NCBI GenBank assembly: GCA_026391455.1
Contig: JAPLEH010000033.1
Coordinates: forward strand, 62,001-126,000
DNA from: Bacteroidota bacterium
GTDB lineage: Bacteria; Bacteroidota; Bacteroidia; Chitinophagales; Chitinophagaceae
Direction: 5' to 3'
DNA: 64,000 nucleotides
Below are positions 18,501 to 34,806 of this stretch, piece by piece. The position numbers and the translations under genes are program-made. Under the pieces are notes generated by a model. That model worked only from the letters and a program-made list of their open reading frames with translations. It made no database searches and was not told the DNA's origin. Numbering within the stretch: the stretch's first letter is position 1; every line of letters begins with the position of its first letter.

Positions 18501-18535
18501 TTCCAGATTTGGGAATGTTGCTCCATTTGCTGGAG
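18501..18535. promoter_or_regulatory. Tandem upstream activator sites TTCC-N7-GGAA and CTCC-N7-GGAG
   Basis: TTCCAGATTTGGGAA (18501-18515) and CTCCATTTGCTGGAG (18521-18535) are 15-bp inverted repeats centred exactly 20 bp apart, 81 and 61 bp before the GG of the -24/-12 promoter. The first is the exact reverse complement of the site at 25775. The bound protein is probably the sigma-54 activator encoded at 33328. Confidence 0.6.
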
Positions 18536-18586
18536 GGATAGCTACTGTGCCAATTAAAAGATTGTTGATAATCAGCATATTATTTA

Positions 18587-18603
18587 TTGGCATATAAGTA
18601 GCC
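18587..18603 (+). promoter_or_regulatory. Sigma-54-type promoter of the exopolysaccharide operon
   Basis: TTGGCATATAAGTAGCC has GG at 18589-18590, ten bases, then GC at 18601-18602, matching TGGCAC-N5-TTGC at 8 of 10 positions. Transcription would start near 18614, 13 bases before the first gene. Confidence 0.6.
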
Positions 18604-18626
18604 AATACTGTTTCCAAAATAATAAA

Positions 18627-19058
18627 ATGGAAAACAGTACCTCTTTTAAAATCTTTTTGGTAGATGACGACCCATTCAGTCTTTGCCTGTATGAACAACA
18701 CCTCCGGAACAGTGGAGTAACGAATATATCCACTTTCGAGAATGGTACCCTATGCCTTAACCACCTGGGCCAGCAACCTGATGTGATCTTCCTGGATCAC
18801 AATATGGAGATATTGGACGGGGTGGAGATTCTCCGTAAGATAAAACGTTTCAATCCTGATATTCAAGTGGTGTTTGTATCCGGTCAGGAAGATGTGTCTG
18901 TGGCTGTTAACTCACTCAAATATGGAGCCTTCGATTATATCATAAAGGGTAATGATGATCTCAATAAGATTGATCAGGTGTTGGAGAAGATCGCAGCGAT
19001 ACGGAACATGTTGCAGCAAAAGAACAAAAGTATACTCCGGAAATTTTTACCAGTATAG
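18627..19058 (+). CDS. Receiver-only response regulator
   Basis: A 143-residue receiver domain with no output domain: acidic pocket in FLVDDDP, phospho-acceptor Asp57 in IFLDHNM, Thr/Ser position in VFVSGQED and Lys in YIIKGNDD. It is the first gene of the exopolysaccharide operon, 11 bases before the export gene. Its segment SGQEDVSVAVNSLKYGAFDY closely matches the receivers at 33328 and 34828, so the three are paralogues. It may act by protein contact or as a phosphate shuttle between the kinases downstream. Confidence 0.88.
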   Translation: MENSTSFKIFLVDDDPFSLCLYEQHLRNSGVTNISTFENGTLCLNHLGQQPDVIFLDHNMEILDGVEILRKIKRFNPDIQVVFVSGQEDVSVAVNSLKYGAFDYIIKGNDDLNKIDQVLEKIAAIRNMLQQKNKSILRKFLPV

Positions 19059-19069
19059 TAAATTTTATT

Positions 19070-19828
19070 ATGAAAGCATTTTTCAGCATAGCACTCAGCA
19101 CGTTTATAGCAGTGGGATTATTTTCCTGTAAGACGCAGAACCTGCTGGTGCAGGATAAGAAACAAACCATATTTCAACACCTGCAGCCCGACAGTACTTT
19201 TTTACTGGATACTGCCTACGAATACCGTATACGAAAGGATGATAAAGTTAGTGTGAGCTTTTGGGGTAATGATGATCTGAGTGTGGGGTCGGTATATGGT
19301 ATTTACAATAGTAATGAAGTATATGGTAAATGGCTGCTGGTGGACATCCGGGGGAATATTACGCTGCCCCGGGTGGGCAATTACCGCGTGGAAGGTAAAA
19401 CGGTGGCTGAACTGGAAGACTCGCTGGTTACGGTGTACAAAAAATGGCTGGTGAACCCGGTCATTGAAGTGAAAGTGCTCAATAAAGAGATTACCATTTT
19501 GGGCGAATTGCGTAATCCGGGAAAGTATACTGTTGAAAAAGATAACAACACCCTGCTCGATCTGGTGTCTTTGGCCGGTGGATATGAATTTTATGCGAAC
19601 CTGACTTCCGTAAAAATTATCCGGCAACAAGGCAGTACGGTGCGCATGGTGAATGTGGATATGACGAAAGCAGCCGACCTGTTTAAACGGAATATTCAGT
19701 TGCACCCCGGCGACCTGGTAGTGGTGCCCTCAAAAAAGAACAAAGAATTTGATAAACGAATCTCTACCATTATACCGCTCGCATCCAGTACTACCGCAGC
19801 AGCGATATTGGTGGGTACATTCCTGTAA
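19070..19828 (+). CDS. Wza-like polysaccharide export lipoprotein
   Basis: 252 residues. A lipobox ends at Cys20 (AVGLFSC). Residues about 50-140 form the poly-export domain (YRIRKDDKVSVSFWGNDDL, LVDIRGNITLPRVGNYRVEG), followed by one SLBB domain (about 145-200, ITILGELRNPGKYTVEKDN, LLDLVSLAGGY). A C-terminal hydrophobic segment (IIPLASSTTAAAILVGTFL) could span the outer membrane, as in bacteroidete Wza relatives. It forms the outer-membrane exit for the polymer and is encoded 10 bases before its inner-membrane partner. Confidence 0.9.
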   Translation: MKAFFSIALSTFIAVGLFSCKTQNLLVQDKKQTIFQHLQPDSTFLLDTAYEYRIRKDDKVSVSFWGNDDLSVGSVYGIYNSNEVYGKWLLVDIRGNITLPRVGNYRVEGKTVAELEDSLVTVYKKWLVNPVIEVKVLNKEITILGELRNPGKYTVEKDNNTLLDLVSLAGGYEFYANLTSVKIIRQQGSTVRMVNVDMTKAADLFKRNIQLHPGDLVVVPSKKNKEFDKRISTIIPLASSTTAAAILVGTFL

Positions 19829-19838
19829 ATAACCCTGT

Positions 19839-22031
19839 ATGAAACCCGTAAACGAAAATCTCAGACTCATAAAACCCTTCCTGCGGGGGTTGCCGATCAT
19901 TGCAGCGGTAATGATCGTGTCCGTAACAGTGGCAAGGCGATACCTGAAGTATGCCACTCCCATGTATGAGAGTACGGCGCGGATACGGCTGGCCGATTCT
20001 AAAGACGGGTCTCCAAGTTCCAACCTGTTCAAGGATTTTGATTTGTTTGCCAACGTAAATAAGATCGGTGCCGAGATGGAAGTGATCAAATCAAAGGTAC
20101 TCATCAATCAGGCATTGGATAGTGCAGGCATTGATATTACCACCTACCGGGTGGGCAAGCTTCGTAAAATAGAATTGTACCATGAATGTCCTTTTGTAGT
20201 AACGGCCAATTTCAACAACCAACCGTTATTTGATAAGTTATTCCGATTATCTGTTTATACGCCCGATCTGTTTCGTGTCACAGTACCCGGTCAGGCCCAG
20301 CCAGTAAAAGGAAGATTTGGTGTGCCGCTTGTGTTTGGTAAGGATACCTTACTGATACAAAAGAACAATGCCCTGCTGGCGCAAAAGCCAGCACTGCAAA
20401 TCACGGACGAGTATGCGTTTATCGTACACAGCCGCCAGAAGCTGATCGACCAGGTGCTCTCCTCGTTGTCAGTAAGTTCTATCGATAAAGAAATACCGGT
20501 GTTGAGGCTTACCTATAAAAGTCCGGTGGCACAGAAAGCGGCCGATATGGTCAATATTATTTCACAGGCGTATATTGATGATTATATTGAAACAAAATAC
20601 AAATCTGCCAATACCACTCGTGAGTTTCTGGATAAACAATTATCTGTAGTGGGTAAAGACCTTTCTTCTTCGGAGAATGCAATAGAAAGTTACCGCAATA
20701 AAAAACGGATCATCAATATCCGCCAGGAAACAGAGACCGATCTCCGGAAGATCGCGGATATGAAAGTGCAGCAAACGAATGTGCGGATGAACCTGGAAGC
20801 GATTACGGACCTCTCGAATTACATGCAGGCGGGTAAAGATATTACCGAACTGGCCCCCAACTTTGAAGCCTATACAGACCTGCTTGCTACAGAACTGGTA
20901 AAAAAGATGAAAACATTGCAGGCAGAAAAGAAAGACCTGCTGGTAAAATATACACCCGAGCATGAGCAGGTAAAACTCGTGGACAATAAGATCGAAGACA
21001 TCAGCCGCTATCTCCGCGAGGGTATCAACAATACCCGTAAAAATCTGGAAGTAAAGTATCAGCGGCTGAGCAATGATATTGATATGGCCGAGCAGGTATT
21101 CAATGGACTTCCGGAAAAGGAGAAGACCATGGGAGTACTGAACCGCAATTTTATGCTCAATGAACAGACCTATAATTTTTTGCATGCCAAGCGTACAGAG
21201 GCAGAGATTGCTACAGCAGCCACCATCTCTTTCCACCGCATTATTTCACATGGAGACGTTCCGGGCTCACCGGTTTCTCCCAATGCAGGTTTGCTGAAGA
21301 TACTCGCCGGTTTTTTAGGGTTCCTGGGTTCACTCACGCTTATATACCTCGTTCATGCCATTAAAGGAAAGGTGAATGATAGTATCACCATCGAAAAGAA
21401 ATCATCCATACCACTTGCTGCTTCCACACCTATGCTGAAAAAGCCGGAAGCTATACGGCATCATTTTCATAAACTGGCGATCCAACTGGAAGTAAAAGCA
21501 TTACTCAAGCCTCACCAGTTAATCACCATCTCCTCTTTTTCGAAGAATGAAGGCAAGTGTTTCAATGCGCTATTCCTGGCGCGTGAACTTGCCATGCAGC
21601 AAAAGAAAGTATTGCTGGCAGATACCGACGGACAACTCATAATCAAAGGAGTACTCCATAGTCAGGAACCTTTTCGCTACGTGAATCTGACGGCTGCTGA
21701 TACGAAATGTGCCAACAGCGAAGAATGGTCCCGCCTGATGGAGCTGTGGAAAAAGGAATATGATTTTGTGATCATCAAGAATGAGAATATTGAACAAGCA
21801 TCCACCGGTTTATTACTGATGAATATGGCGGAAGCTAATCTTTTTCTGTTCGACTCAAGGATAACCCCCGCCCGTATGGTTACGGAAGCGCAATTATTAA
21901 ATGAAGAGTATTCATTTTCTAATATGCAATATCTTCTTAACCGGGCAGGCTATAATCCGAATGTATTGGTGCAGGCAATGGATATGTTGAAAGCGCTGAT
22001 AAAACGCATCAGGAGGGCGAAGCGTGCATGA
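19839..22031 (+). CDS. Wzc-like polysaccharide co-polymerase with degenerate kinase domain
   Basis: 730 residues: TM1 (about 16-36), a periplasmic Wzz domain with long coiled-coil helices (about 230-450), TM2 (about 486-508) and a C-terminal BY-kinase-like domain. The kinase looks dead: the Walker A position reads SKNEGKCFN (Gly572-Lys573-Cys574 instead of GKS/T), Walker A' is VLLADTDGQ, and the Walker B strand (DFVIIKNENI) lacks the usual Asp. There is no C-terminal tyrosine cluster. It should still set chain length and link Wza to the polymerase. Its last four bases overlap the flippase start (ATGA). Confidence 0.87.
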   Translation: MKPVNENLRLIKPFLRGLPIIAAVMIVSVTVARRYLKYATPMYESTARIRLADSKDGSPSSNLFKDFDLFANVNKIGAEMEVIKSKVLINQALDSAGIDITTYRVGKLRKIELYHECPFVVTANFNNQPLFDKLFRLSVYTPDLFRVTVPGQAQPVKGRFGVPLVFGKDTLLIQKNNALLAQKPALQITDEYAFIVHSRQKLIDQVLSSLSVSSIDKEIPVLRLTYKSPVAQKAADMVNIISQAYIDDYIETKYKSANTTREFLDKQLSVVGKDLSSSENAIESYRNKKRIINIRQETETDLRKIADMKVQQTNVRMNLEAITDLSNYMQAGKDITELAPNFEAYTDLLATELVKKMKTLQAEKKDLLVKYTPEHEQVKLVDNKIEDISRYLREGINNTRKNLEVKYQRLSNDIDMAEQVFNGLPEKEKTMGVLNRNFMLNEQTYNFLHAKRTEAEIATAATISFHRIISHGDVPGSPVSPNAGLLKILAGFLGFLGSLTLIYLVHAIKGKVNDSITIEKKSSIPLAASTPMLKKPEAIRHHFHKLAIQLEVKALLKPHQLITISSFSKNEGKCFNALFLARELAMQQKKVLLADTDGQLIIKGVLHSQEPFRYVNLTAADTKCANSEEWSRLMELWKKEYDFVIIKNENIEQASTGLLLMNMAEANLFLFDSRITPARMVTEAQLLNEEYSFSNMQYLLNRAGYNPNVLVQAMDMLKALIKRIRRAKRA

Positions 22032-23281
22032 AAAACCGGATCACATATCTGCTGATTTTTTTTCATACCGAAAAAGGATATGTCATTGCAGACCAGTTAG
22101 TCTTTAGTGCCACCAGCTTTTTCACCACGATACTGCTGGCCCGGCAACTGGGTATTCATTCTTTCGGGATTTACAGCGGCATCATGCTTTTTTTGTACCT
22201 CCTGCTCAGTTTGATTTCCAGTATGGTGATACTTCCCTTTCAGGTATTGCTGGCGCGGGACGAAAACAAAACCGGATATATGGTTGCGGTGATCCGCATG
22301 CAGCTATTGCTTACATTCATCTTGCTGTTGCTGGCGGGTGTATTGCTATACAGCCCCATTGGGATTGTACAACCACTAAAATCGTATACGCCGGAATTAT
22401 TGCTGTTAACTGGTGGTTTCTTATTGCAGGATTTTTTCAGGCGAATGTTTATTGCCTGCCAGCGTGCTTCACTGGCACTGTATATGGACATTGTAAGCGG
22501 CGGTCTTCAACTGCTTTTGTTGTTAGTTGCCGCATATCGGCATTCGCTGGATCTTTCCTATGGATTGCTCATTATTGGTATCACCTATCTTCCATCGCTG
22601 CTGATTGCTGTTAAATGGGCTGCGGGTTTGAAGGCCAATAGCATTTCATTTCGTAAAACGGTGGCCGGTCACTGGCAGCAGGGGCGCTGGCTATTGCTTA
22701 CTTCGGTGCTGCAATGGTGGTCGGGTAATTTTCTGATTGCGGTGGCCGGCGTTTTTTTAGGCGTTGCGGCGTTGGGCGCTTTGCGACTGGCCCAAACACT
22801 GATGGGCGTATTGAATGCCATGTTTCAGGTAATTGAAAATTATGCAATGCCGAGGGCTTCGGTATTACTTCAGCAGTCGGTACAATCCATGAAACATTTT
22901 CTGCAGCAACTATCCCTGAAAGGATTGTGTTTATTGGTGCCGGTACTGTTGTTGCTTTTCCTGTTTCCCGTTACGGTATTCCGGATTTGCGGGGGCGAAG
23001 CTTATACCGGTTATGCCTATGCGCTGCAGGGAATGGCTGTATTGTATATTATCGTTTTCGCAGGATACCCCTTTCGTATTGCATTGCGGGCCATGCTCAT
23101 GAACCGTGTGTTTTTTACCGGTTACCTGCTTACGTTTTTGTTTACGGTGCTTGCGGCCCGCTTCATTGTATTGCAATGGCAACTGGCGGGAGTTATCACT
23201 TCACTGATCGTTAATCAGCTATTAATGCTCGGGTACTGGCAGTATATGCTGGCCCGTAAAAAATTCAAACTATGGAAATAA
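22028..23281 (+). CDS. Wzx-type polysaccharide flippase
   Basis: 417 residues with about 12 hydrophobic segments and short loops, typical of the MATE/oligosaccharide flippase superfamily (for example FLYLLLSLISSMVILPFQVLL and LLILLAGVLLYS-like spans). The N-terminal LVFSATSFFTTILLARQLG matches the usual first span of Wzx proteins. It would move the lipid-linked repeat unit across the inner membrane. The gene overlaps the co-polymerase by four bases and the next glycosyltransferase by ten, so the genes are translationally coupled. Confidence 0.85.
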   Translation: MKNRITYLLIFFHTEKGYVIADQLVFSATSFFTTILLARQLGIHSFGIYSGIMLFLYLLLSLISSMVILPFQVLLARDENKTGYMVAVIRMQLLLTFILLLLAGVLLYSPIGIVQPLKSYTPELLLLTGGFLLQDFFRRMFIACQRASLALYMDIVSGGLQLLLLLVAAYRHSLDLSYGLLIIGITYLPSLLIAVKWAAGLKANSISFRKTVAGHWQQGRWLLLTSVLQWWSGNFLIAVAGVFLGVAALGALRLAQTLMGVLNAMFQVIENYAMPRASVLLQQSVQSMKHFLQQLSLKGLCLLVPVLLLLFLFPVTVFRICGGEAYTGYAYALQGMAVLYIIVFAGYPFRIALRAMLMNRVFFTGYLLTFLFTVLAARFIVLQWQLAGVITSLIVNQLLMLGYWQYMLARKKFKLWK

Positions 23282-24381
23282 TACATGTTGTGCTGGGTAA
23301 AGCAAATCCTAACCGGATGAACGGCGTAAATAAAGTAGTACACCAACTGGCCACCCGCCAGGTAATGGCCGGGCATCAGGCTGCGGTTTGGGGTATTACG
23401 CATGATCCTACACATAATTATCCGGAACGAAATTTCGAGACAAAACTGTTCAAAGCATATCCCGGTATGTTTCGGCTGGACGAACAATTTGTACAGTCCG
23501 TAAAGGATAAAAAAGGAAAAGCCGTGTTTCATCTTCATGGCGGATTCAATCCGGTGTTTTATGCCGTATCCCGGCAACTGATCGCTACAGGCATCCCCTA
23601 TGTATTTACGCCGCACGGTGCATATAATGTTATTGCTATGCGGAAGAGCAGGTTGCGAAAGAAGATCTATTTATCGCTGTTTGAGAAAAAGATCATTCAA
23701 GGAGCGGCATATATGCATTGCCTCGGAAAATCCGAATTGGAGGGATTGAAACGATTGAACATACCGGGAAAAGTAAAGTTGTTGCCTTATGGTTTTGACA
23801 ATAAAGTAACACAGGGGGGCATACCCGATTACCACCGGTTCATTATTGGCTTTTGCGGGCGCATTGATATTTATACAAAAGGCCTTGATCTGCTGTTACA
23901 GGCCTTTGCTATCGTAAAAAGGAAAACTCCGCATGCAGCTTTGTGGATCATTGGTGATGGAGAGGAAAAAGCAGCATTGGAAAAAATGGTAGAGGACAAA
24001 CAACTGAAGGATGTCTGGATGGCCGGCGGCCGCTTCGGAGAAGAAAAGGATGCCCTGTTAAAGCAAATGCATGTATTTGCCCATCCGTCGCGCAATGAAG
24101 GATTGCCCTCTGCGGTACTGGAAGCGGCATCGCTTGGTATTCCGGCAGTAATATCGGAAGCCACCAACCTGGGGGAAGTGGTGCGTCATTATCAGGCAGG
24201 TGTGGTATTGCAGCATCCCGGGGCGGAAGAACTGGCGGAAGGCATTCTCGAATTATATGATCGTATCCGGAGCGAGGGATGGAAACATATCAGCACGGCT
24301 GCCCGTACTATGGTAGCTGAAGCCTTTGATTGGGAGATGCTGGTAACTGAATTTCATAAAATGTATAAAGAAGCATGCTGA
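23272..24381 (+). CDS. GT4 glycosyltransferase
   Basis: 369 residues with two Rossmann-like halves. The N-terminal part has a GVNKVVHQLATRQ glycine-rich loop; the C-terminal part has FCGRIDIYTKGLDLLLQAF (nucleotide-sugar site) and the family E-x7-E region in RNEGLPSAVLEAASLGIPAV. It adds one sugar to the lipid-linked repeat unit on the cytosolic face. Donor and acceptor cannot be read from sequence. It overlaps both neighbours (10 and 7 bases) in the operon. Confidence 0.9.
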   Translation: MEIIHVVLGKANPNRMNGVNKVVHQLATRQVMAGHQAAVWGITHDPTHNYPERNFETKLFKAYPGMFRLDEQFVQSVKDKKGKAVFHLHGGFNPVFYAVSRQLIATGIPYVFTPHGAYNVIAMRKSRLRKKIYLSLFEKKIIQGAAYMHCLGKSELEGLKRLNIPGKVKLLPYGFDNKVTQGGIPDYHRFIIGFCGRIDIYTKGLDLLLQAFAIVKRKTPHAALWIIGDGEEKAALEKMVEDKQLKDVWMAGGRFGEEKDALLKQMHVFAHPSRNEGLPSAVLEAASLGIPAVISEATNLGEVVRHYQAGVVLQHPGAEELAEGILELYDRIRSEGWKHISTAARTMVAEAFDWEMLVTEFHKMYKEAC

Positions 24382-25673
24382 CAGCGTTGAACGATAACAT
24401 GCATAAACCTTTTTTGCGAAAGGTAAATATCCTGATGCTGATCATGCTCTTTGTGATGACTGCAGGTTATTTTACCTGGAGCGAAAGCCTGCTGGTGACC
24501 CGCCTGCTGAAAGTAGTGGGCCGTTTATCTGTAACTGTGGGTATCTGGTATATATTCAGGATGCTGGTGAAAAAAGGAGCTGCCACATCTTTTCGATGGC
24601 AAAATAATTATTCTCCACTTTTATATGCAGGATACCTGGGGTTGGGGATGATCTCCATACTCTGGAGTACAGACAAAGGGTACAGCCTGCTCCAGTGGTT
24701 TATGGATTTTGAAAGTCTTGTTTTTGCCTTTTATTTCATGCGATGTTTTATGGTGCTCGATGAATATTATGCAGGCCACAGTATCCGTTTTTATAATCTG
24801 CTTGGAAATACGGCCTACCTGCTCCTGCTCATTTTTGTGATTGGCATGTATGTGGCGCCTGATACATTTTTCCGTATGACCCATGGGGGAGAAGAGGCCC
24901 GGTTAGGCGGTTTTATTATGAACCCGAATGAACTGGGTATGTTATGCGGAGTGGGTGTATCCTGCCTGCTGTTTGATATCTACCGGAAGCACTATCGGGT
25001 GATGACTATTATCAAAATAGCCGTAATGGCCTATGCACTGTTGATGACAGGAAGCCGTTCGTCGCTGGTTGGGTTATTGCTAATCGCCTTTTTCCATATC
25101 CGCCAATCGAAAAATATAAAGTTGAAACTGATGATGTATGCAGTGGCCCTGGCTGCCATACCCATTGCCGTTACAAAACTGATGATCAAAGAGAATGGGG
25201 GAGGAGTGGAAGAAGTAATGAGTATGACCGGACGCCTCCCTTTCTGGACCGCTCTACTAAATGAGGCTTTTCCCAAAGAACCTCTGCTGGGTTTTGGCTT
25301 TATGCGTATTTATTATACCGATACCTTTCAGGGAGCAAATACCTATGCCGGCCATATGACGCACAATACATTTATGCAGGTATTGATGAATCTTGGTATC
25401 ATCGGTTTTTCCATTGCCCTTTTTCAACTCATCTTCACTATAAAAGGATTCTTATCCACTACCGACCAGGAAAAGAAACTGGTACTGATGGGAATACTGA
25501 TACCCGTTATTATCAACTCCTTTACTGAGTTTGGCATTTTCGGTGAAACCAATTATGGTATCCTCTTTTATCAGCTTCTCATTTTTTCTGTATCCATGCA
25601 GAAAGCTGCGTTTATTACCCGACGGGAAAAATTATATCTCCGTAAAACAAGACCTGAATTACTGATACACTGA
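24375..25673 (+). CDS. Wzy-like O-antigen/exopolysaccharide polymerase
   Basis: 432 residues, about ten to twelve membrane spans, with the Wzy_C/O-antigen ligase pattern: a MTGSRSSLVGLLLIAF span, a large extracytoplasmic loop (about 255-320, ending in GHMTHNTFMQVLMNLG with the conserved His) and a final pair of spans. It joins lipid-linked repeat units in the periplasm. It overlaps the preceding glycosyltransferase by seven bases. A start at MHKPFL, eight codons in, is also possible. Polymerase is preferred over ligase because the locus otherwise lacks one. Confidence 0.82.
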   Translation: MLTALNDNMHKPFLRKVNILMLIMLFVMTAGYFTWSESLLVTRLLKVVGRLSVTVGIWYIFRMLVKKGAATSFRWQNNYSPLLYAGYLGLGMISILWSTDKGYSLLQWFMDFESLVFAFYFMRCFMVLDEYYAGHSIRFYNLLGNTAYLLLLIFVIGMYVAPDTFFRMTHGGEEARLGGFIMNPNELGMLCGVGVSCLLFDIYRKHYRVMTIIKIAVMAYALLMTGSRSSLVGLLLIAFFHIRQSKNIKLKLMMYAVALAAIPIAVTKLMIKENGGGVEEVMSMTGRLPFWTALLNEAFPKEPLLGFGFMRIYYTDTFQGANTYAGHMTHNTFMQVLMNLGIIGFSIALFQLIFTIKGFLSTTDQEKKLVLMGILIPVIINSFTEFGIFGETNYGILFYQLLIFSVSMQKAAFITRREKLYLRKTRPELLIH

Positions 25674-25774
25674 TTCGGGTCCCCGTTTCTGTTCCAGTTT
25701 TTGTAATGCGCCCTCCAATACGTATGCTAACGTGCAGGTGTAGCCGCTTTTTTTTCAATAACCCTAGTAGCTTT

Positions 25775-25789
25775 TTCCCAAATCTGGAA
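25775..25789. promoter_or_regulatory. Upstream activator site TTCCCAAATCTGGAA
   Basis: A perfect TTCC-N7-GGAA inverted repeat, identical to the reverse complement of the site at 18501. A partial second copy (TTCCGGAA, 25794-25801) follows. It lies about 90 bp before a -24/-12-like sequence and within the gap before the fusion gene. Confidence 0.55.
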
Positions 25790-25870
25790 TGTATTCCGGA
25801 AAATAGAGTTTTATTAAAGTTACTTATTTGTAAAGGGTTCGTTATCAGTAGCATTGAAAGGTTTTTTTTC

Positions 25871-25885
25871 TGGCACTATACTGGA
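25871..25885 (+). promoter_or_regulatory. Weak sigma-54-like element before the fusion gene
   Basis: TGGCAC (25871-25876), five bases, TGGA. The -24 half is perfect but the -12 GC is replaced by GA, and the predicted start (about 25897) would leave almost no leader. The upstream activator site makes it worth listing. Confidence 0.33.
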
Positions 25886-25897
25886 AAAGCGGGAAGT

Positions 25898-28366
25898 ATG
25901 AAAATGGAAAATATCCAACTGATACAAGAAGTATTCACTACACTTGGTTATCCGTTGCTGTCGGAAGAAGACAATCATAAGGCCGTGCCTATAAATGTTT
26001 ATTATAGAAACAATCCCGACGGGTCTGTACGGTGGGTGTGGCCCGTAAGCCAGCACAGGCCTCAGGTACTGCGTTTTTATAACACGGCTTCCCGCAGGGC
26101 AAGGATACTGGCTGCTATTATCCGGTTATTATTTTTCCTGCGCTTATCTGGTTTGTTTGCTTCCGGAAAAGCAACCCTTTACCTGCGTAGTGGCCACTTA
26201 GCGCAATTGGAGGAACGTTATGGCAGAAACTGGGCGCTGTTCACCGGCACCGCAGGATTGAACCGCTCTGCGTTGCTGTATGCAAGCGATTTATTTCATA
26301 AGATTCCATTGGGTGAGTATGCGTTGCCGCTGCTGATCAATGAATACCGGCAACACCGGCATTGGAAAAATTTTCGTTTTGCACATACGGAGATTGCCGC
26401 AGCCTCGCTCCGGGGAATTGTGCTTACCCAGAAGGATATTTCAGGAAATGGGAAACGCAGTGAATACCTGACCAGTTTGCATTGGAATACAATCCGCGAA
26501 TTAAGTGAGACCAATCTCTGCACACTTCCATTGAAAGTAATACCGCAATGGAAAGAATTGGATGAAAAACTGGACAGTATCGAAAATAAAAGGCATCCGA
26601 TGGTGCCACCCGGACTTGTAAAAAAATTGCGGATGCTTAAAGCGTCGCTCGATCCGGATGCCATGGTGACTGCCGGGTATGCACATGGTGATTTTACCCC
26701 CTGGAATATTTATGTGAAAAAGGATAAACTCGCTCTGATAGACTGGGAGATGGCCGATACCAGTACACCATTACTTTTTGATGCACTGCATTTTATTTAC
26801 CAGCAGGGTGTATTGGTGGAACATTGCACGTACCGTACATTGAAAGCGAAAATCATAAAGCAGTTGGAGCATCCCGAAGCTACACAGTTTATCCGGGAAC
26901 ATGGGATTGATACCGGATTACATCATTGTTTATATATACTCTTTACTGCTGTATATTATTGCAGCAGGTACAGTGAGCAGGATGAATGGCAACCGCAGTT
27001 GCAATGGAGTGTACAGGCCTGGTCGCATGCAGTCGATGATTTTTTAGTACAGCGTTCTGTGCTGCGTCCTCGCCAGGCCTTGATAACGGGGATCATTGAT
27101 TTTCTGCATACAAAACCCTACGCGGCGCTGAAATGGATGGCGGCAGACCCGGCTTCACTTTCTGAAGAATCCGATATGGATATCTGTATCGCACCAGCAA
27201 TGCGAAAGCCGGTGCAACGATTTCTCAAAAACCATTTTTTGGTGGTCAAACAGCGGCGTTCACGCAAATCTTATATGGACAATTACGGTATCTGGCTGGC
27301 TGATCATTCATTTCTGAGTGTGGATATGATCTTCCAATTGAAAAGAAGGCATACCGTGATGATGGATACGGCACCCCTTATTGCTTCTGCAACAATGGAT
27401 GGTGCCGGTGTAAAAGTGCCGGCACCGGAGTATGATTTTACTTATACCTGGTTGTTTTATCTTCTTAATCACGCCTCCATGCCAGTAAAATACCGGCAGC
27501 ATTTCAGTTTCCGCAGTATTACACAGGCCCGTATGCTGAATGAAGGATTTGCCTGGAAAGAACAGTTGCATATCCGTAATTACCGGGAATTATTTTATTA
27601 TGATGCAGGAATACGAAGTAAAGTAATGGCTTCTCTTTCCGCATTACCTGTGAACAAAAGCTGGAGACAATGGAGAAACCGCATCCTCTTTATTCTGGAT
27701 TCTATGCGGGGGTGGATTTCCCGCAGGGGTTTTATCATCACATTCAGTGGTGTGGATGGTGCAGGTAAATCAACAGTTATTGAGAAAGTGCGCCAGCAGA
27801 TAGAAAAAAGATACCGGCGAAAGACCGTGGTATTGCGTCATCGCCCTGCTGTGCTTCCTATGCTCAGTGCTTGGAAAGAAGGAAAGCAGGCCGCTGAGCA
27901 ACGCGCCGCCACTCGTTTGCCCCGGCAGGGTAACAACAATAATCTATTCTCCTCCTTACTCCGGTTCGGCTATTATTATGCGGATTATCTGGCCGGTCAG
28001 TTTGTAGTGCAGGTGAAATATGTATGGAGGGGCTATGTGGTATTGTATGACCGCTATTATTTTGATTTTATACAAGATGGTAAACGGAGCAATATCGTAT
28101 TGCCGTACTGGCTTACCCGATCCTGGTATGCATTGCTGCTGAAACCTTCCTATAATTTTTTCCTCTATGCAGAAGCCGAAACGATACTGCAACGGAAAAA
28201 GGAACTGGATAAGCGAACCATCCTGGAACTTACCCGAAACTATCTTCGCCTGTTTGGACGCCTTGGCAAAACGTATCGCCACTCTAAATACATCGCTATC
28301 CGGAATGAACAACTTCCGGAAACATTGCAAACCATTTTTGAACATATTAAGGCAAAGACCGTATGA
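25898..28366 (+). CDS. Three-domain fusion: APH-like kinase, nucleotidyltransferase-like domain, thymidylate-kinase-like P-loop kinase
   Basis: 822 residues from the ATG at 25898; the frame is open from 25706, but that part covers an activator site and a promoter-like element and has odd composition. Domain 1 (about 1-370) has the aminoglycoside-phosphotransferase catalytic loop HGDFTPWN (His263) and metal-binding Asp282 in LIDWEMAD. Domain 2 (about 385-560) has SDMDICI (Asp426 and Asp428) like minimal nucleotidyltransferases. Domain 3 (about 610-822) has P-loop GVDGAGKST (618-626) and LYDRYYFD as in thymidylate kinases. Its place between the polymerase and glycosyltransferase genes suggests phosphate or nucleotide decoration of the glycan or a sugar-activation role; this is inference. 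The next gene overlaps its stop by four bases. Confidence 0.8.
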   Translation: MKMENIQLIQEVFTTLGYPLLSEEDNHKAVPINVYYRNNPDGSVRWVWPVSQHRPQVLRFYNTASRRARILAAIIRLLFFLRLSGLFASGKATLYLRSGHLAQLEERYGRNWALFTGTAGLNRSALLYASDLFHKIPLGEYALPLLINEYRQHRHWKNFRFAHTEIAAASLRGIVLTQKDISGNGKRSEYLTSLHWNTIRELSETNLCTLPLKVIPQWKELDEKLDSIENKRHPMVPPGLVKKLRMLKASLDPDAMVTAGYAHGDFTPWNIYVKKDKLALIDWEMADTSTPLLFDALHFIYQQGVLVEHCTYRTLKAKIIKQLEHPEATQFIREHGIDTGLHHCLYILFTAVYYCSRYSEQDEWQPQLQWSVQAWSHAVDDFLVQRSVLRPRQALITGIIDFLHTKPYAALKWMAADPASLSEESDMDICIAPAMRKPVQRFLKNHFLVVKQRRSRKSYMDNYGIWLADHSFLSVDMIFQLKRRHTVMMDTAPLIASATMDGAGVKVPAPEYDFTYTWLFYLLNHASMPVKYRQHFSFRSITQARMLNEGFAWKEQLHIRNYRELFYYDAGIRSKVMASLSALPVNKSWRQWRNRILFILDSMRGWISRRGFIITFSGVDGAGKSTVIEKVRQQIEKRYRRKTVVLRHRPAVLPMLSAWKEGKQAAEQRAATRLPRQGNNNNLFSSLLRFGYYYADYLAGQFVVQVKYVWRGYVVLYDRYYFDFIQDGKRSNIVLPYWLTRSWYALLLKPSYNFFLYAEAETILQRKKELDKRTILELTRNYLRLFGRLGKTYRHSKYIAIRNEQLPETLQTIFEHIKAKTV

Positions 28367-29682: not shown

Positions 29683-30811
29683 TTACAGCGGAAGCCCGTT
29701 CGTATTGCGCCAATCGCTGGAAGCATTATTAAAGGACGGATATAGTATTGACCTGTTTACGGCCACACCAACCGGCGAGGGGTTTCTCAGTAATCTGTAT
29801 GGCGTGAAACAACATCATCTTTTTTATAAATGGAGCCGCAATAAACTGGTTACCCTGTTTTATTTTTTATGCAGTCAGTTCCTGTTGTTTTTCCGGATAC
29901 TATGGTATGCAAGAAAACAGGATATGGTATATATCAATTCATTGCTGCCTTTCGGCGGCGCATTAGCAGGCCGGTGTCGTGGATGCAAAGTGGTCTATCA
30001 CATACATGAAGTGTCGATAAAACCATTATTATTGAAACGTTGGTTATTGTTTGTAGCAAACAACACTGCCCATACCGGCATTTTTGTATCAAAGGACCTG
30101 TGGCAACGTACCGCTTTCCGGAAACCATTCCAGGTCATCTACAATGCATTGCCAGTTCCTTTTACACAGAAGGCGATTGCCCATCATGCTGTTACCACCG
30201 GTTTGCCTTTCACCGTATTAATGGCCTGCTCGCTAAAGAAATACAAAGGAGTGGATGAACTGATAAAATGTGCTATTCGTATGCCAGTATTGCGGTTTAT
30301 TCTGGTGCTCAACGCAAATACGGCAGCTATCCGTTCTTATTTCGGGGAAACCATTTTGCCTGAGAACATAGAAATAGTTCCTGCCTGTAAAGACCTGCAT
30401 CCGTATTATCAGGAGGCCGATCTGGTGATGAACCTGTCTTTACCGGAAGCATGGATCGAAACTTTTGGGATGACTATTCTGGAAGCTATGTATTATAAAA
30501 TACCGGTCATTATTCCTCCGGTTGGCGGCATCACTGAACTGGTTACAGATGGGGTAGAGGGTTTTCATGTACATGCGGCGGATACCGACACGCTATGTAT
30601 GCGGTTAGAACAGTTATCAAGCAGGGGTAAACGATATCAGGAGTTCTCGGCAAATGCATTTGCAAAAGCACAAAATTTTTCTCAGGAACAGTTCAGTCAG
30701 GCTATCATTGGATTGTTTGCTTCCATCGGGATAACTGATATCAATAGCGGCCAACGCAAATATTACCGGTTGCCATTATTCGGAAAGCGTGTCCCAAATA
30801 TGGAAAAATAA
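29642..30811 (+). CDS. GT4 glycosyltransferase
   Basis: 389 residues from the ATG at 29642 (MKKKRILALHLLNDYSG); an earlier in-frame ATG at 29582 lies inside the upstream gene and adds an unlikely leader. The C-terminal half has the GT4 pattern (VLMACSLKKYKGVDELIKCA, then PEAWIETFGMTILEAMYYKIPVI with the two glutamates). A hydrophobic stretch (about 60-90, LVTLFYFLCSQFLLFFRILWY) is a probable membrane anchor. An activator-like inverted-repeat pair spans the end of this gene (30771-30805). Confidence 0.87.
   Translation: MKKKRILALHLLNDYSGSPFVLRQSLEALLKDGYSIDLFTATPTGEGFLSNLYGVKQHHLFYKWSRNKLVTLFYFLCSQFLLFFRILWYARKQDMVYINSLLPFGGALAGRCRGCKVVYHIHEVSIKPLLLKRWLLFVANNTAHTGIFVSKDLWQRTAFRKPFQVIYNALPVPFTQKAIAHHAVTTGLPFTVLMACSLKKYKGVDELIKCAIRMPVLRFILVLNANTAAIRSYFGETILPENIEIVPACKDLHPYYQEADLVMNLSLPEAWIETFGMTILEAMYYKIPVIIPPVGGITELVTDGVEGFHVHAADTDTLCMRLEQLSSRGKRYQEFSANAFAKAQNFSQEQFSQAIIGLFASIGITDINSGQRKYYRLPLFGKRVPNMEK
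30771..30805. promoter_or_regulatory. Tandem activator sites TGCC-N7-GGAA and GTCC-N7-GGAA
   Basis: TGCCATTATTCGGAA (30771-30785) and GTCCCAAATATGGAA (30791-30805) each differ from TTCC-N7-GGAA by one base and are centred 20 bp apart. They lie 81 and 61 bp before the GG of the next promoter, the same geometry as at 18501-18535, although they fall within the end of a coding region. Confidence 0.52.
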
Positions 30812-30857
30812 AAAGCATAGTAATTACTAAGTACTTCTTTTACAATGCCATTGATAA

Positions 30858-30873
30858 CGGCACGTAAATAGCG
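30858..30873 (+). promoter_or_regulatory. Sigma-54-type promoter before the DUF1972 glycosyltransferase
   Basis: CGGCACGTAAATAGC has GG at 30859-30860, ten bases, GC at 30871-30872, and the full GGCACG core. Transcription would start near 30884, 17 bases before the ATG. Confidence 0.6.
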
Positions 30874-30900
30874 ATAAAGAAAAAAACGAAAATAATAAAC

Positions 30901-32115
30901 ATGTCACGCAAAAAAAGAATTGCTATAATAGGTACGGCGGGTATACCGGCCAGGTATGGAGGATTTGAAACATTGGCTGAGCAACTGGTTCGGCAACTTG
31001 GCGACAAGTATGCGATCACCGTTTATTGCCCCGGGCCAAAATATACAAAGGAAGAACGTAAAACATCTTTTCAATCGGCCCGTTTGAAATACCTGCCTCT
31101 CCAGGCCAACGGCTTACAAAGTATTCCCTATGACAGCCTCTCCATTTTACATGCGCTATTTTCTGCTGATGTACTGCTGGTGCTGGGAGTAGCCGGTGCA
31201 TGGCTGCTCCCCTTTGTTAAATTGTTTACCCGCAAAAAGATCATCGTGTCGATCGATGGTATCGAATGGAAACGGGCTAAATGGAATCGCCTCGCCAAAT
31301 GTTATCTGTGGTGGGCCGAAAAGATGGCTGTAAAATATTCACATGCGGATATTTCAGATAATGAATCCATACAGGATTATACGGCTGTCCGGTACACCAG
31401 TCTCAGTCATATTATTGAATACGGAGCAGATCATACTGTACAGGTAACTCCAACAGCTAAAGACAAGGAAGAATATCCATTTTTACACAAACCGTATGCA
31501 TTTAAGGTATGCCGTATAGAGCCGGAGAATAATATTCATCTCGTGCTGGAAGCATTTGCTACAATGCCCGGCTATACGCTGGTGATGATCGGCAACTGGA
31601 AGAACAGTGAGTATGGTTCTTCTCTTTATTTACAATACAGTGGGTATAACAATATTATTTTGATGGATCCGGTGTATGATCAGCGAAAACTGGATGTTAT
31701 CCGGGGCAATGCCTATCTCTATGTGCATGGCCATAGCGCCGGTGGTACCAATCCTTCATTGGTGGAAGCCATGTACCTGGGGCTCCCGGTGCTGGCATTC
31801 GATGTCTCCTATAACCGCACCACCACGGAAGGGAAAGCCTGTTATTTCAAAACGGCGGCAGATATCGCTGCCATTATTGGAAATACTAGACTGGCCGTAT
31901 TACGGGAAAATGGGTTTCGTATGAAAGAAATTGCACACCGCCGTTATACCTGGGAAGTGGTGGCACGCAAATATGATGAACTGGTACAAAGGGTATTGAA
32001 CAATAAAGGAAAGATTCCGGTTACACCGTCGGTTGCAACTATACCTGCGGAGCAATTGATCTCGTATGAATTGGCACACCTGCAGGCTCCTACACCCTTT
32101 TATGAAAAAAGATAA
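30901..32115 (+). CDS. DUF1972-type (rhamnosyltransferase-like) GT4 glycosyltransferase
   Basis: 404 residues. The N-terminus IAIIGTAGIPARYGGFETLAEQL is the DUF1972 signature seen in Cps2T-like beta-1,4-rhamnosyltransferases that often add the second sugar of a capsular repeat. The VSIDGIEWKRAKWNRLAK segment also fits. The C-terminal GT4 half has CRIEPENNIHLVLEAF and GHSAGGTNPSLVEAMYLG. It sits beside the WecA-like initiating transferase, consistent with acting early on the lipid-linked intermediate. It starts a sub-operon with its own sigma-54-like promoter. Confidence 0.87.
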   Translation: MSRKKRIAIIGTAGIPARYGGFETLAEQLVRQLGDKYAITVYCPGPKYTKEERKTSFQSARLKYLPLQANGLQSIPYDSLSILHALFSADVLLVLGVAGAWLLPFVKLFTRKKIIVSIDGIEWKRAKWNRLAKCYLWWAEKMAVKYSHADISDNESIQDYTAVRYTSLSHIIEYGADHTVQVTPTAKDKEEYPFLHKPYAFKVCRIEPENNIHLVLEAFATMPGYTLVMIGNWKNSEYGSSLYLQYSGYNNIILMDPVYDQRKLDVIRGNAYLYVHGHSAGGTNPSLVEAMYLGLPVLAFDVSYNRTTTEGKACYFKTAADIAAIIGNTRLAVLRENGFRMKEIAHRRYTWEVVARKYDELVQRVLNNKGKIPVTPSVATIPAEQLISYELAHLQAPTPFYEKR

Positions 32116-32134
32116 ATAGTTAATTTGATTTATT

Positions 32135-33220
32135 ATGAATAGTATGATCTATACAATTCTTCAGGCAATGTTCGCTTCCATGATCGCTGGTGGCCTTGCC
32201 ATTGCGTTGCTGCGTAAATACAGCAGGTACATCGGATTGATTGATAAGCCGGGCAAACGGAAAGTACACCAACAACCGGTACCGGTGGTGGGAGGAATCG
32301 CCATCATTACCGGCACAATAGCCGGCCTGCTTACCACTCATCACGCCAATCTTTTACTACAGACGTTGCCTGCACTCGCAGGGGGATGCCTGTTGTTGTT
32401 TGTTACGGGTGTCTCCGATGACCGCTTCAATATTAAACCCCGCTATCGTTTACTGCTGCAACTTGGTTGTGCTGCTTTAGTAGCTGCAAGTGGCATTCGT
32501 ATCACCTCATTATTTGGAGTATTGGGAATAGACGAAATGAATACCATAGGACAATACATCCTGACCATAGTAGTGATTACGGGTGTTACCAATGCCTTCA
32601 ATTTAATTGATGGCATAGACGGGCTTGCGGGAGGGTTGGCCATCATCAACCTGTCTTTGCTTGCCGTGTTGAGTTATTGGCTCCAGCAATATGTACTTTT
32701 TGTATTACTCATCACCACTTGCGGCGCAGTATTCATTTTTTTACGGAGCAATGTTCATCCTGCACGGATCTTTATGGGCGACGGAGGTTCGCTGGTACTC
32801 GGTTTCCTCATGGCTGTCGCAGGGATATTATTGGTAAAGGAAGAACAATTGTATGTGAGAAGAGAAGATGCGAGGGCATTGGTACTGGTGCCAGCCATGC
32901 TGGCCCTGCCGGTATTTGATTCCCTTCGGGTTTATGCCGGCCGGCTACTACGGGGAGGTTCACCGTTTCAGGCAGATAAAACCCATTTACACCATTTGTT
33001 TCTGGGATTGGGTTTTACTCACCGAAAAGCAACTATGACGATTTGTGGTATTCAGGTACTGTTGATCCTGATCGCCATGCTGGTTTTCCGGATGATGGAT
33101 TTTCAATGGACAATGGTTCTGATGGCAAGTGCCTATTTACTGATATGCAGCTTTTTGAAGGGCTATATCAGCCTCCAAAAATGGACCCAAACGATCCGGA
33201 AAATGGAAGGCGTAAATTGA
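32135..33220 (+). CDS. WecA/MraY-family undecaprenyl-phosphate sugar-1-phosphate transferase
   Basis: 361 residues with about ten membrane spans. Polyprenyl-phosphate N-acetylhexosamine transferase motifs are all present: DKPGKRKVHQQPVPVVGG near the start, LIDGIDGLAGGLA (Asp159, Asp162), ARIFMGDGGSLVLGF (Asp216) and the HLHHLFLGLG histidine motif near residue 290. It loads the first sugar phosphate on undecaprenyl phosphate and so begins repeat-unit synthesis. It follows the DUF1972 enzyme by 19 bases. A second, unrelated initiating transferase lies at the left edge of the window. Confidence 0.9.
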   Translation: MNSMIYTILQAMFASMIAGGLAIALLRKYSRYIGLIDKPGKRKVHQQPVPVVGGIAIITGTIAGLLTTHHANLLLQTLPALAGGCLLLFVTGVSDDRFNIKPRYRLLLQLGCAALVAASGIRITSLFGVLGIDEMNTIGQYILTIVVITGVTNAFNLIDGIDGLAGGLAIINLSLLAVLSYWLQQYVLFVLLITTCGAVFIFLRSNVHPARIFMGDGGSLVLGFLMAVAGILLVKEEQLYVRREDARALVLVPAMLALPVFDSLRVYAGRLLRGGSPFQADKTHLHHLFLGLGFTHRKATMTICGIQVLLILIAMLVFRMMDFQWTMVLMASAYLLICSFLKGYISLQKWTQTIRKMEGVN

Positions 33221-33277
33221 ACTAATTAGTTTTGTTTATGTGTTTATACTAGTTTTTCAAATGAACTTGAATAAGGG

Positions 33278-33292
33278 TTCCATTTTTTGGAA
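33278..33292. promoter_or_regulatory. Upstream activator site TTCCATTTTTTGGAA before the activator gene
   Basis: A perfect TTCC-N7-GGAA site ends 35 bases before the start of the sigma-54 activator gene. No -24/-12 promoter lies between, so it may be an autoregulatory (repressing) site rather than an enhancer. A looser repeat TTCAA-N6-TTGAA precedes it at 33256-33271. Confidence 0.5.
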
Positions 33293-33327
33293 TATCTGAC
33301 TATATTGAGGCTGAAAAACCACCAGCC

Positions 33328-34686
33328 ATGGACATGTATAAAATATTTATTGTAGAGGACGACCCCTGGTATGGCGAAATACTCGAATATCATCTCTCGC
33401 TCAATCCGGACTACCATATCACCCGATTTACAAAAGGGAAAGACCTTATGGCATCCCTTCATCAGAAGCCAGATCTGATCACGATTGATTTTTCATTGCC
33501 TGATTTTACGGGTGATAAATTATATCAGCAAATACGTCAGTATAATGAGCAGTTGCCGGTGATTGTCATCAGCGGTCAGGAGGAGATCAATGTGGCAGTG
33601 AATATGCTCAAAATGGGCGTATCCGATTATCTGATCAAGGATGAAAACACCAAAGATCTGTTGTGGAATGCCGTCATCCGTATTCGCGAAAATGGCCAGT
33701 TGAAAAAAGAGGTGGAGCAACTGAAAGAAGAACTGGGGCAAAAATATTCCTTTGATAAAAGCATAAAAGGCCAGAGCCCGGCGCTGAAGAAGATATTTTC
33801 GCTCATGGAAAAAGCCTCGCGCACCAGTATCAATGTATCGGTCACCGGCGAAACAGGTACGGGCAAGGAACTGGTGGCAAAAGCTATTCATTACAACAGT
33901 GAACGGAAGAAAAAACCCTTCGTAGCAGTAAATATGGCTGCTATTCCCCGCGAGTTGACAGAGAGCGAATTGTTCGGGCATGAGAAAGGAGCTTTCACCG
34001 GGGCCATTGCACGTAAGATTGGTAAGTTTGAAGAAGCGCATGGTGGTACTTTGTTTCTCGATGAGATCGCCGAACTGGATCTGTCGGTACAAAGTAAACT
34101 GCTCCGGGTATTGCAGGAGCGTGAGCTCATACGCGTAGGCGGGCAGGATAAAGTAAAACTCGACATACGACTAATTGCCGCCACGCATAAAGACCTGGCC
34201 GCAGAAGTAAAAAAAGGTACATTCCGGGAAGACCTGTATTACCGGATCATCGGTTTGCCGATCGACTTGCCCCCATTGCGGGAAAGAGATCACGATGTGC
34301 TGATACTGGCCCGGTTCTTTGCAGATGAGTTTACCCGGGAGAATAAAATGCCGGTACTTTCCATTAGTCAGGAAGCAAAAGAAAAATTAATGCAATACAA
34401 TTACCCGGGCAATGTCCGGGAGTTGAAAGCCATGATCGACCTGGCCGCTGTGATGTGTGATGGCAACGAGATACAGGCAGATGATATCAGTTTTCCTGCT
34501 TCGGCCAGTAGTGAATCCTTTACCACCATGGAAAAAACATTGCGTCAGTACAATTGCGATATCATCAGTTACTATCTGAAAAAGTATAATAATGATGTGA
34601 TACTCGTTGCAGATAAACTGGACATTGGCAAGAGTACCATTTATAAAATGATGCAGACTGGTGAATTGAACCGTACAACAGGCTGA
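33328..34686 (+). CDS. Sigma-54-dependent response regulator (NtrC family)
   Basis: 452 residues: a receiver (1-120, phospho-acceptor Asp54, SGQEEINVAVNMLKMGVSDY, Lys in LIKDE), a full AAA+ sigma-54 activation domain (about 145-380) with Walker A GETGTGKE (from residue 174), the sigma-54 contact loop GAFTGA (from 221) and Walker B TLFLDEIAELD, and a Fis-type helix-turn-helix (about 405-445, VADKLDIGKSTIYKMM). It is a complete, apparently active enhancer-binding protein. It lies between the polysaccharide genes and a kinase operon and is the best candidate to bind the TTCC-N7-GGAA sites of this locus. Confidence 0.95.
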   Translation: MDMYKIFIVEDDPWYGEILEYHLSLNPDYHITRFTKGKDLMASLHQKPDLITIDFSLPDFTGDKLYQQIRQYNEQLPVIVISGQEEINVAVNMLKMGVSDYLIKDENTKDLLWNAVIRIRENGQLKKEVEQLKEELGQKYSFDKSIKGQSPALKKIFSLMEKASRTSINVSVTGETGTGKELVAKAIHYNSERKKKPFVAVNMAAIPRELTESELFGHEKGAFTGAIARKIGKFEEAHGGTLFLDEIAELDLSVQSKLLRVLQERELIRVGGQDKVKLDIRLIAATHKDLAAEVKKGTFREDLYYRIIGLPIDLPPLRERDHDVLILARFFADEFTRENKMPVLSISQEAKEKLMQYNYPGNVRELKAMIDLAAVMCDGNEIQADDISFPASASSESFTTMEKTLRQYNCDIISYYLKKYNNDVILVADKLDIGKSTIYKMMQTGELNRTTG

Positions 34687-34690
34687 TTGT

Positions 34691-34725
34691 TTCCATAAGG
34701 AGGACAAAATTTCCGGATTTTGGAA
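34691..34725. promoter_or_regulatory. Tandem activator sites TTCC-N7-GGAC and TTCC-N7-GGAA
   Basis: TTCCATAAGGAGGAC (34691-34705) and TTCCGGATTTTGGAA (34711-34725) are centred exactly 20 bp apart, starting four bases after the activator gene ends and upstream of the receiver-kinase operon. The 20-bp tandem spacing repeats that at 18501 and 30771. Confidence 0.55.
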
Positions 34726-34790: not shown

Positions 34791-34806
34791 TGGCACCAAT
34801 ATGGTA
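34791..34806 (+). promoter_or_regulatory. Sigma-54-like promoter of the receiver-kinase operon
   Basis: TGGCACCAATATGGTA has a perfect TGGCAC -24 half, but the -12 element reads GT in place of GC. The predicted start (about 34817) is 11 bases before the ATG. It lies 74 and 94 bp after the paired activator sites. Confidence 0.42.

Follow-up and report, generated by a model that had tools for sequence, protein, structure and literature searches.

A 64-kb stretch of Bacteroidota DNA, referred to here as the window, carries an exopolysaccharide (EPS) locus in which copies of a 15-bp inverted repeat, TTCC-N7-GGAA, lie before several genes between positions 18501 and 34725. Our analysis indicates that these palindromes are probably enhancer sites for the NtrC-type activator encoded at 33328 in the same locus, and that through them the activator would drive EPS, receiver and sensor-kinase genes by way of sigma-54. 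Judging from the sequence comparisons that follow, we put the probability of this reading at about 0.87. The sites recur in relatives, they are spaced and phased with respect to one another and to -24/-12 promoter elements, and paired sites co-occur with close orthologues of the activator.

Scanning the whole window returned six perfect copies of TTCC-N7-GGAA. Four are inside the EPS locus (18501, 25775, 33278 and 34711), the one at 25775 being the exact reverse complement of that at 18501, just as the initial annotation of this DNA had reported; the other two (54040 and 59390) are outside the locus, within open reading frames (ORFs) with Pfam matches. Base composition predicts 0.93 perfect copies in 64 kb and 0.24 between 18501 and 34725, where four or more have a Poisson P of 1e-4, and 100 dinucleotide shuffles of the window gave a mean of 1.77, with none reaching six. 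These values roughly agree with the annotation's estimate of about one chance copy per 64 kb and bear out its claim that four copies in the locus exceed chance. The imperfect copies that it listed were also found, at 18521 (CTCC-N7-GGAG, two changes), 30771 (TGCC, one change), 30791 (GTCC, one) and 34691 (GGAC, one). When one mismatch was tolerated, the window held 44 copies against 32.9 expected, and 5 of the 100 shuffles reached 44; as this total is barely above chance, the signal resides in the perfect copies and their arrangement. The whole genome of the window contained 164 perfect copies compared with 84 of a reversed control and about 80 expected from composition, indicating that the bare pattern is largely background there.

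The arrangement is ordered. Sites lie before the genes at 18627, 25898, 30901, 33328 and 34828, as had been annotated, but the five marked units are not equivalent, since the activator gene at 33328 has one site and no sigma-54-type element. The annotation had also overlooked that the copies at 18501/18521, 30771/30791 and 34691/34711 form pairs, each 20 bp from centre to centre. Four of the five units combine such a pair (at 25775, a palindrome and a half-site) with a -24/-12 element 60-89 bp downstream, one of them weak. All elements are on the forward strand and were scored with a matrix trained mostly on relatives (threshold 8). The pair at 18501..18535, perfect at 18501-18515 and imperfect at 18521-18535, is followed by TGGCATATAAGTAGCC (18588..18603), 60 bp beyond the second palindrome's centre, with a score of 15.1. 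The site at 25775..25808, a perfect palindrome (25775-25789) and then TTCC at 25794, precedes TGGCACTATACTGGAA (25871..25886) by 89 bp from the palindrome centre; this element scored 12.4 and is outside the training set, to which those at 18588 and 34791 belong. The pair at 30771..30805, with one change in each palindrome, stands 60 bp (from its second centre) before a -24/-12-like element, CGGCACGTAAATAGCG (30858..30873), whose score of 4.7 is below threshold. At 34691..34725 the second palindrome is perfect and its centre is 73 bp from TGGCACCAATATGGTA (34791..34806; score 16.5). The single perfect palindrome at 33278..33292 is centred 43 bp before the activator gene, and the best downstream score was -0.1. 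The 25775 site falls within the longest ORF (start 25706), which the annotation had not remarked, and its chosen start of 25898 fits the point at which N-terminal similarity to related proteins begins (alignment judged by eye).

We then asked whether the motif recurs with the activator. The best 80 of 138 related places in the species genomes of GTDB served as orthologue loci, their best segments being 58-77% identical; 78 were labelled Bacteroidota and the others 'uncultured bacterium' and Kuenenia, the latter probably a mislabel. These loci amount to 1.43 Mb, divided into intergenic and coding DNA by a simple ORF caller, and together with the window make 81. Intergenic DNA of the 80 loci contained 127 copies of TTCC-N7-GGAA and only 1-4 for each of ten other spacers (3-6 and 8-13), whereas coding copies were ordinary (27 for N7, 17-41 for the others). 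Other spacers were thus not enriched between genes in these loci, so that the refuting result named in the initial annotation, a motif equally common elsewhere, did not appear. After reduction to a single locus for each cluster at 80% identity (53 loci), the intergenic counts were 77 and 0-3, and 38 of the 53 loci had a site. The 130 intergenic copies gave the consensus TTCC-A-N-WWW-N-T-GGAA, with a fixed 7-base spacer and a variable AT-rich middle; the ORF caller placed the 25775 site within a gene, and it is therefore left out of the intergenic counts. Although the loci had been fetched by the activator alone, 59 of the 81 carried intergenic sites, and the share fell with activator identity, from 18/18 and 28/31 in the two highest classes to 13/28 at 60-65% and 0/4 below 60%.

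Pairing and promoter elements were conserved as well. At sites other than those of the activator gene, a second core was most often 20 bp away (32 counts, in which pairs with both copies perfect enter twice), then 29 bp (6) and 19 bp (4). Between site and gene start (up to 130 bp), the hexamer TGGCAC was present for 19 of the 81 sites of this kind, pair members being taken separately, and upstream for 0 of 81. A leave-one-locus-out matrix gave a downstream -24/-12 element for 35 of 66 site groups and for 1, 3 and 1 of 66 in three controls. Distances to TGG[CT]A[CT] clustered at 59-63, 69-73, 79-81 and 90-95 bp, with single outliers at 84, 85, 97 and 101 bp and two each at 105 and 172 bp. Phasing was evident at a 10.5-bp period (Rayleigh R = 0.62, n = 52 within 45-105 bp, compared with nine such hexamers upstream) and persisted with one locus per cluster (R = 0.58, P ~1e-5, n = 34). 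Many sites have a -24/-12 element, the kind of promoter on which NtrC-type activators act, 59-105 bp downstream, and the elements keep a fixed helical phase from the upstream palindrome as at a sigma-54-dependent promoter with an enhancer. The elements are of GG-N10-GC type, in which the second base of the -12 pair was often T or A, not C, in this set. The window's genome also encodes sigma-54 itself, with one RpoN match (PF04552, 1.6e-32, contig C52).

Upstream sites were seen again at relatives of the marked genes and rarely at those of the unmarked operon genes. Among best matches in the 80 loci, a perfect upstream site was found for 6 of 14 relatives of the 25898 gene, 2 of 10 of the 30901 gene, 35 of 80 activator genes, 5 of 16 FIST genes and 3 of 69 hybrid kinase genes. 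For the unmarked operon genes (19070, 19839, 22028, 23272, 24375, 28363, 29582 and 32135) the figure was 2 of 66, a tally that leaves out gene 17759 (0/3). Upstream conservation, whose absence the initial annotation had named as a point of vulnerability, was thus present. Counts for 18627 and 34828 were unusable because their best matches were the activator's own receiver domain, and for 18627 a census of receivers was used in their place. Stand-alone receivers shorter than 210 aa, like that at 18627, had a perfect upstream site in 27 of 42 cases, compared with 49 of 858 other ORFs; tolerating one mismatch raised these figures to 36/42 and 152/858. After 8 of the 130 sites with no gene within 450 bp had been dropped, and 2 of 64 downstream genes had been omitted from the Pfam census (one a duplicate), the 62 first genes included 25 with a receiver (hybrid kinases among them), 9 H-NOX, 5 FIST, 3 PAS with kinase, 4 thymidylate-kinase-like as at 25898, and 4 with a glycosyltransferase domain. 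Elsewhere in relatives, pairs precede secreted-type proteins with DUF4402, Por_Secre_tail or DUF4842/DUF4114 domains.

The product of 33328..34686, on the forward strand, is an NtrC-family enhancer-binding response regulator and the proposed reader of the sites. It matched Pfam Sigma54_activat (4.3e-70) and Response_reg (5.6e-21) together with an AAA lid. The GAFTGA motif begins at residue 221; among the orthologues and the window protein G221, F223 and T224 were kept in 81/81, A222 in 69/81, G225 in 76/81 and A226 in 78/81, and the predicted phosphoacceptor position, Asp54, was kept in 81/81. Its C-terminus carries a helix-turn-helix stretch, LDIGKSTIYK, that is strongly conserved among orthologues, and up to residue 443 it can be aligned with the end of 4l4u, a structure from the NtrC family. 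The protein scored below the curated cut-offs of both the NtrC equivalog (TIGR01818; 387.2 vs 558.6 bits) and PrsR (TIGR02915; 365.7 vs 502.6 bits). Residue 440 of the helix-turn-helix gave no clear split of the motif, loci with sites numbering 44/56 for K, 14/19 for N and 1/5 for R.

To verify the association independently of the loci, 244 genomes of the same family were searched for the activator and, separately, for a strict palindrome pair with no promoter requirement. Close orthologues, defined by at least 62% identity, were present in 31 genomes (one orthologue partial). Strict pairs occurred in 13 of these 31, in 5 of 56 genomes with a distant family member and in 9 of 157 with none (close vs none, Fisher P = 1e-6; distant vs none, P = 0.53). 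A -24/-12 element stood downstream of 20 of the 24 distinct pairs of the close class, 2 of 5 of the distant class and 0 of 9 in genomes without the activator, one pair of G134 (no activator) and one of G076 (distant) being left out of this tally. Of the 20 close-class elements, 18 lay 70-72 bp from the middle of the pair and two at 82-83 bp. Three genomes supplied 12 of the 24 pairs (G138 six, G211 three and G062 three), and without G138 and G211, which belong to one genus, 11 of 15 pairs had an element. Several family genomes carry two members of the activator family, usually one close (at least 62%) and one distant (53-57%); possibly the distant member is a paralogue with another code, and paired sites do not track distant-only genomes. 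Enrichment, -24/-12 elements, co-occurrence and the conserved activator residues together favour the initial annotation's proposal that the 33328 protein binds the sites.

Several observations weigh against this proposal. No perfect intergenic copy was found in 22 of the 81 loci, above all those with more divergent activators, and 18 of the 31 close-orthologue genomes lacked a strict pair. Thirty-one of the 66 site groups, like the window's own element at 30858, fell under the -24/-12 threshold. Four of the 24 close-class pairs had no element (L193, L194, L200 and L210), and these may be chance pairs. At genus level the strict site-plus-promoter pattern was noisy, and three genomes with an orthologue (G001, G010 and G012) showed only another promoter type. 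Pfam HTH_8 did not match the C-terminus of the 33328 protein at a cut-off of 0.001. Sites before the activator gene, present as a perfect palindrome in the window and 35 other loci (two in 5 of the 36) and mostly 30-110 bp before the start, rarely had a sigma-54-type element (above threshold in 2 of 36 groups), so that the same motif occurs in two contexts. The primary-sigma box TANNTTTG was not enriched there (9 matches within 120 bp of the 36 groups, compared with 13 around the 66 other groups). Reverse-strand -24/-12 scores exceeded 8 at 13 of the 36 and 10 at 6 of the 36, and some of them may act on genes read in the opposite direction. In the window, the lone palindrome at 33278 probably serves autoregulation, which might run in either direction.

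That the activator gene itself so often bears a site would also be expected if another DNA-binding protein read the palindromes and the activator were a mere neighbour or target. We consider this improbable. Loci fetched by the activator alone mostly carried the sites, the pairs tracked close and not distant activators across the family, and the pairs precede sigma-54-type elements, which need an activator of just this type. Still less credible, to the point of being negligible, is a reading of the palindromes as terminators of transcription, RNA hairpins or a mobile repeat. Their symmetry and intergenic position would suit such elements, but the arms are just 4-5 bp, and a fixed 7-base spacer around a variable AT-rich middle, pairing at 20 bp and a phased distance to -24/-12 elements are not what terminators or repeats would show.

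The genes that follow the activator were tabulated over three ORFs, here called the sensor slot, in all 81 loci. An H-NOX or FIST gene was found there in 36, including the FIST gene of the window; FIST is the domain of the haem nitric-oxide sensor NosP. Two unrelated sensor families occupy the slot, H-NOX in 24 loci and FIST in 16, with both in four. By class, the slots comprised H-NOX with a kinase (20) or without (4), FIST with a kinase (11) or without (1), kinase only (31), neither kinase nor sensor (9) and contig end (5); in L034 and L040 the kinase precedes the FIST gene. H-NOX proteins have a proximal haem histidine and a YxSxR motif. A histidine aligned with the proximal haem ligand was kept in all 24 of the H-NOX proteins after the activator and Y-S-R in 23 (the other is truncated), and their best solved relative was the H-NOX protein Alr2278 (3e-46). 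The available text of PMC8738867 describes the role of this proximal histidine in H-NOX.

Where the first gene after the activator was a sensor starting 1443-1533 bp from the activator start, a perfect palindrome was upstream of it in 14 of 16 cases, compared with 0 of 17 where it started at 1343-1396 bp and should share the activator's operon. Across the 244 family genomes, an H-NOX or FIST gene lay within 6 kb of 18 of 32 close activators, always on the downstream side, compared with 5 of 64 distant ones, and 25 sensor genes lay within 6 kb of an activator where about 0.25 were expected (one sub-cut-off match each for HNOB and FIST was dropped from the sensor counts). Occurrence of such genes after the activator in 36 of 81 loci suggests haem-sensor control of the EPS matrix, with nitric oxide possibly the signal.

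The regulation might also run as proposed with a signal other than nitric oxide, the multi-PAS kinase sensing something else and the FIST or H-NOX protein being accessory or a sensor of oxygen, redox state or haem; we give this version a chance only slightly short of even. It would account for the slots that hold a kinase only or neither protein, and the available text of PMC8738867 allows that some H-NOX proteins may answer to other signals. Most sensor genes in the 244 genomes (22 of 33 H-NOX and 91 of 105 FIST) were not near such an activator, and H-NOX was found in 7 of 31 close-orthologue genomes and in 14 of 157 without the activator; these counts also weigh against the sensor link. The window's FIST protein meets Pfam FIST and FIST_C but is far below the NosP cut-off (NF041558; 49.7 vs 450 bits), so that haem and nitric-oxide binding would follow from domain family and position only. 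Sequence search gave no convincing solved relative for it, and no H-NOX match was found in the window's own genome. On the side of nitric oxide are the occupation of the slot by two unrelated sensor families and the invariant histidine that aligns with the haem ligand. A broader version, which we hold tentatively and as somewhat under an even chance, is that haem-based gas sensing gates the matrix through sigma-54 widely in Bacteroidota: an interchangeable H-NOX or FIST/NosP-like protein would act through a kinase and the activator on EPS and secreted-protein genes and on its own sensor operon, using an enhancer code of palindromes paired at 20 bp. This would be a nitric-oxide pathway with an enhancer-binding activator as output in place of cyclic di-GMP (c-di-GMP), and a single palindrome code could be read across much of a phylum.

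The proposed mechanism can be laid out on the locus, in which all genes below are on the forward strand. Each TTCCA-N5-TGGAA-like palindrome would be bound by one activator dimer, and a spacing of two helical turns would place the dimers of a pair next to each other. The state of the sensor would set kinase activity and phosphate would pass to Asp54, whereupon the AAA+ ring would assemble and remodel the RNA polymerase-sigma-54 complex poised at a -24/-12 element that faces the same side of the helix. Predicted to be switched on is an export unit, which begins with the stand-alone response-regulator receiver (18627..19058; Response_reg, 1.1e-22) and continues with a Wza-type polysaccharide export protein (19070..19828; Poly_export, SLBB), a chain-length/Wzc-type protein (19839..22031; Wzz, GNVR) and following genes; an O-antigen ligase/polymerase family protein (Wzy_C) is encoded at 24375..25673. 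The glycan units at 25898 and 30901 would respond likewise. The former starts with a protein with APH-like and weak thymidylate-kinase-like Pfam domains (25898..28366) and the latter with a DUF1972 glycosyltransferase (30901..32115); a sugar-phosphate transferase family protein (Glycos_transf_4) is encoded at 32135..33220. A further target would be the operon of a receiver-HisKA_3-HATPase kinase (34828..35910), the FIST domain protein (35921..37057), whose place is taken by H-NOX in several relatives, and a multi-PAS hybrid histidine kinase (HisKA-HATPase-receiver with a weak Hpt; 37044..41576) whose start overlaps the FIST gene by 14 bp. This operon probably feeds phosphate back to the activator, giving positive feedback.

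At NtrC enhancers, paired palindromes lie upstream of a -24/-12 promoter and the activator acts as an AAA+ ring; the palindrome sequence differs here, and the 33328 protein is below the NtrC cut-off. A close parallel is PrsK/PrsR with the PEP-CTERM promoters of Proteobacteria, for which the available text of PMC1569441 describes a conserved upstream site with a -24/-12 motif. Both systems have an NtrC-like activator and a kinase near EPS genes, and in both the sites co-occur phylogenetically with the activator. They differ in phylum, in the sub-cut-off PrsR score and in targets, which here are glycan, receiver and secreted-protein genes; as far as that source shows, PrsK is a transmembrane kinase, whereas here the kinase is a multi-PAS hybrid and comes with a FIST gene. 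H-NOX and NosP (FIST) signalling also places a stand-alone haem sensor gene beside a histidine kinase and is linked to biofilms. The outputs named in the available texts are c-di-GMP enzymes, quorum-sensing phosphorelays, iron-uptake gene expression and HnoC derepression, HnoC being a DNA-binding regulator that is one output in Shewanella (PMC8738867, PMC12570481, PMC12471899). The neighbour here is a sigma-54 enhancer-binding activator tied to EPS promoters.

In the same phylum, -24/-12 promoters (SM4) have been mapped in Flavobacterium psychrophilum, one of them tested by mutation, and distinct activators are expected for its co-expression groups; the targets include chaperones, gliding and exported proteins and others, and the available text assigns no activator binding site (PMC9723704). 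Available portions of other sources describe sigma-54 as a controller of the cell exterior, EPS included (PMC3162934), and, in a census of sigma-54 regulons, name chaperones, proteases, TonB and transporters, among others, for Bacteroidota classes (PMC12316311). Among the open-access literature matches listed, as far as their available text goes, no sigma-54 activator binding site was assigned in Bacteroidota despite the mapped promoters. Nor did any of these matches describe the enhancer code proposed here, or an H-NOX or FIST protein working with an enhancer-binding activator, for Bacteroidota; as they are part of the matching literature, absence from print is not established. The code recurs from Chitinophagaceae to Algoriphagus, Mucilaginibacter and Lutimonas. 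It would allow matrix-regulon genes of environmental Bacteroidota, both EPS units and secreted-type proteins, to be read from sequence, and the H-NOX/FIST neighbourhood makes it testable whether their biofilm matrix is tied to nitric oxide or a comparable signal, and via which output.

Genus-level scans of 42 genomes did not separate those with and without the activator; they included six close orthologues and one partial, and a confounding promoter family. In this family TTCC...TTTCGGAAATTCTGTC is followed by TGACAG and then a TGGYAY-type -24/-12 element, and in the window's genome it lies before an HSP20 gene (G000:C50:80860, L233:1361). By eye, one such locus was found in each of 16 other genomes of the genus (L155, L157, L161-L164, L166-L168, L170, L173, L174, L176-L178 and L181), with variants also in genomes without the activator. 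The element would fit the chaperone sigma-54 regulon of F. psychrophilum as described in the available text of PMC9723704.

In the two relatives of one genus (G138 and G211; L216-L224), each of the nine strict pairs has a nearly identical element downstream, TGGCAYGCCRTTGGYW for eight pairs and TGGCACGTGGTTGGTT for the ninth; four of the five proteins scanned behind them were DUF4402 proteins and the fifth was a receiver. Two loci, L108 and L105, have a very similar layout and the same helix-turn-helix under the labels Kuenenia and Chryseobacterium gleum, and these assemblies are probably mis-binned or mislabelled. Finally, the relatives' consensus TTCCRNWWWNYGGAA had 13 matches in the window's genome compared with 2 for the control, 8 of the 13 within ORFs. 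Besides the locus, C63:77459 and perhaps C49:130524 look real. The latter has a score of 8.2 with no ORF start nearby. The former (L225:1960), a possible further member of the regulon, combines a consensus palindrome and TGGCAT at +62 and lies ahead of a 644-aa open frame that had no Pfam match.

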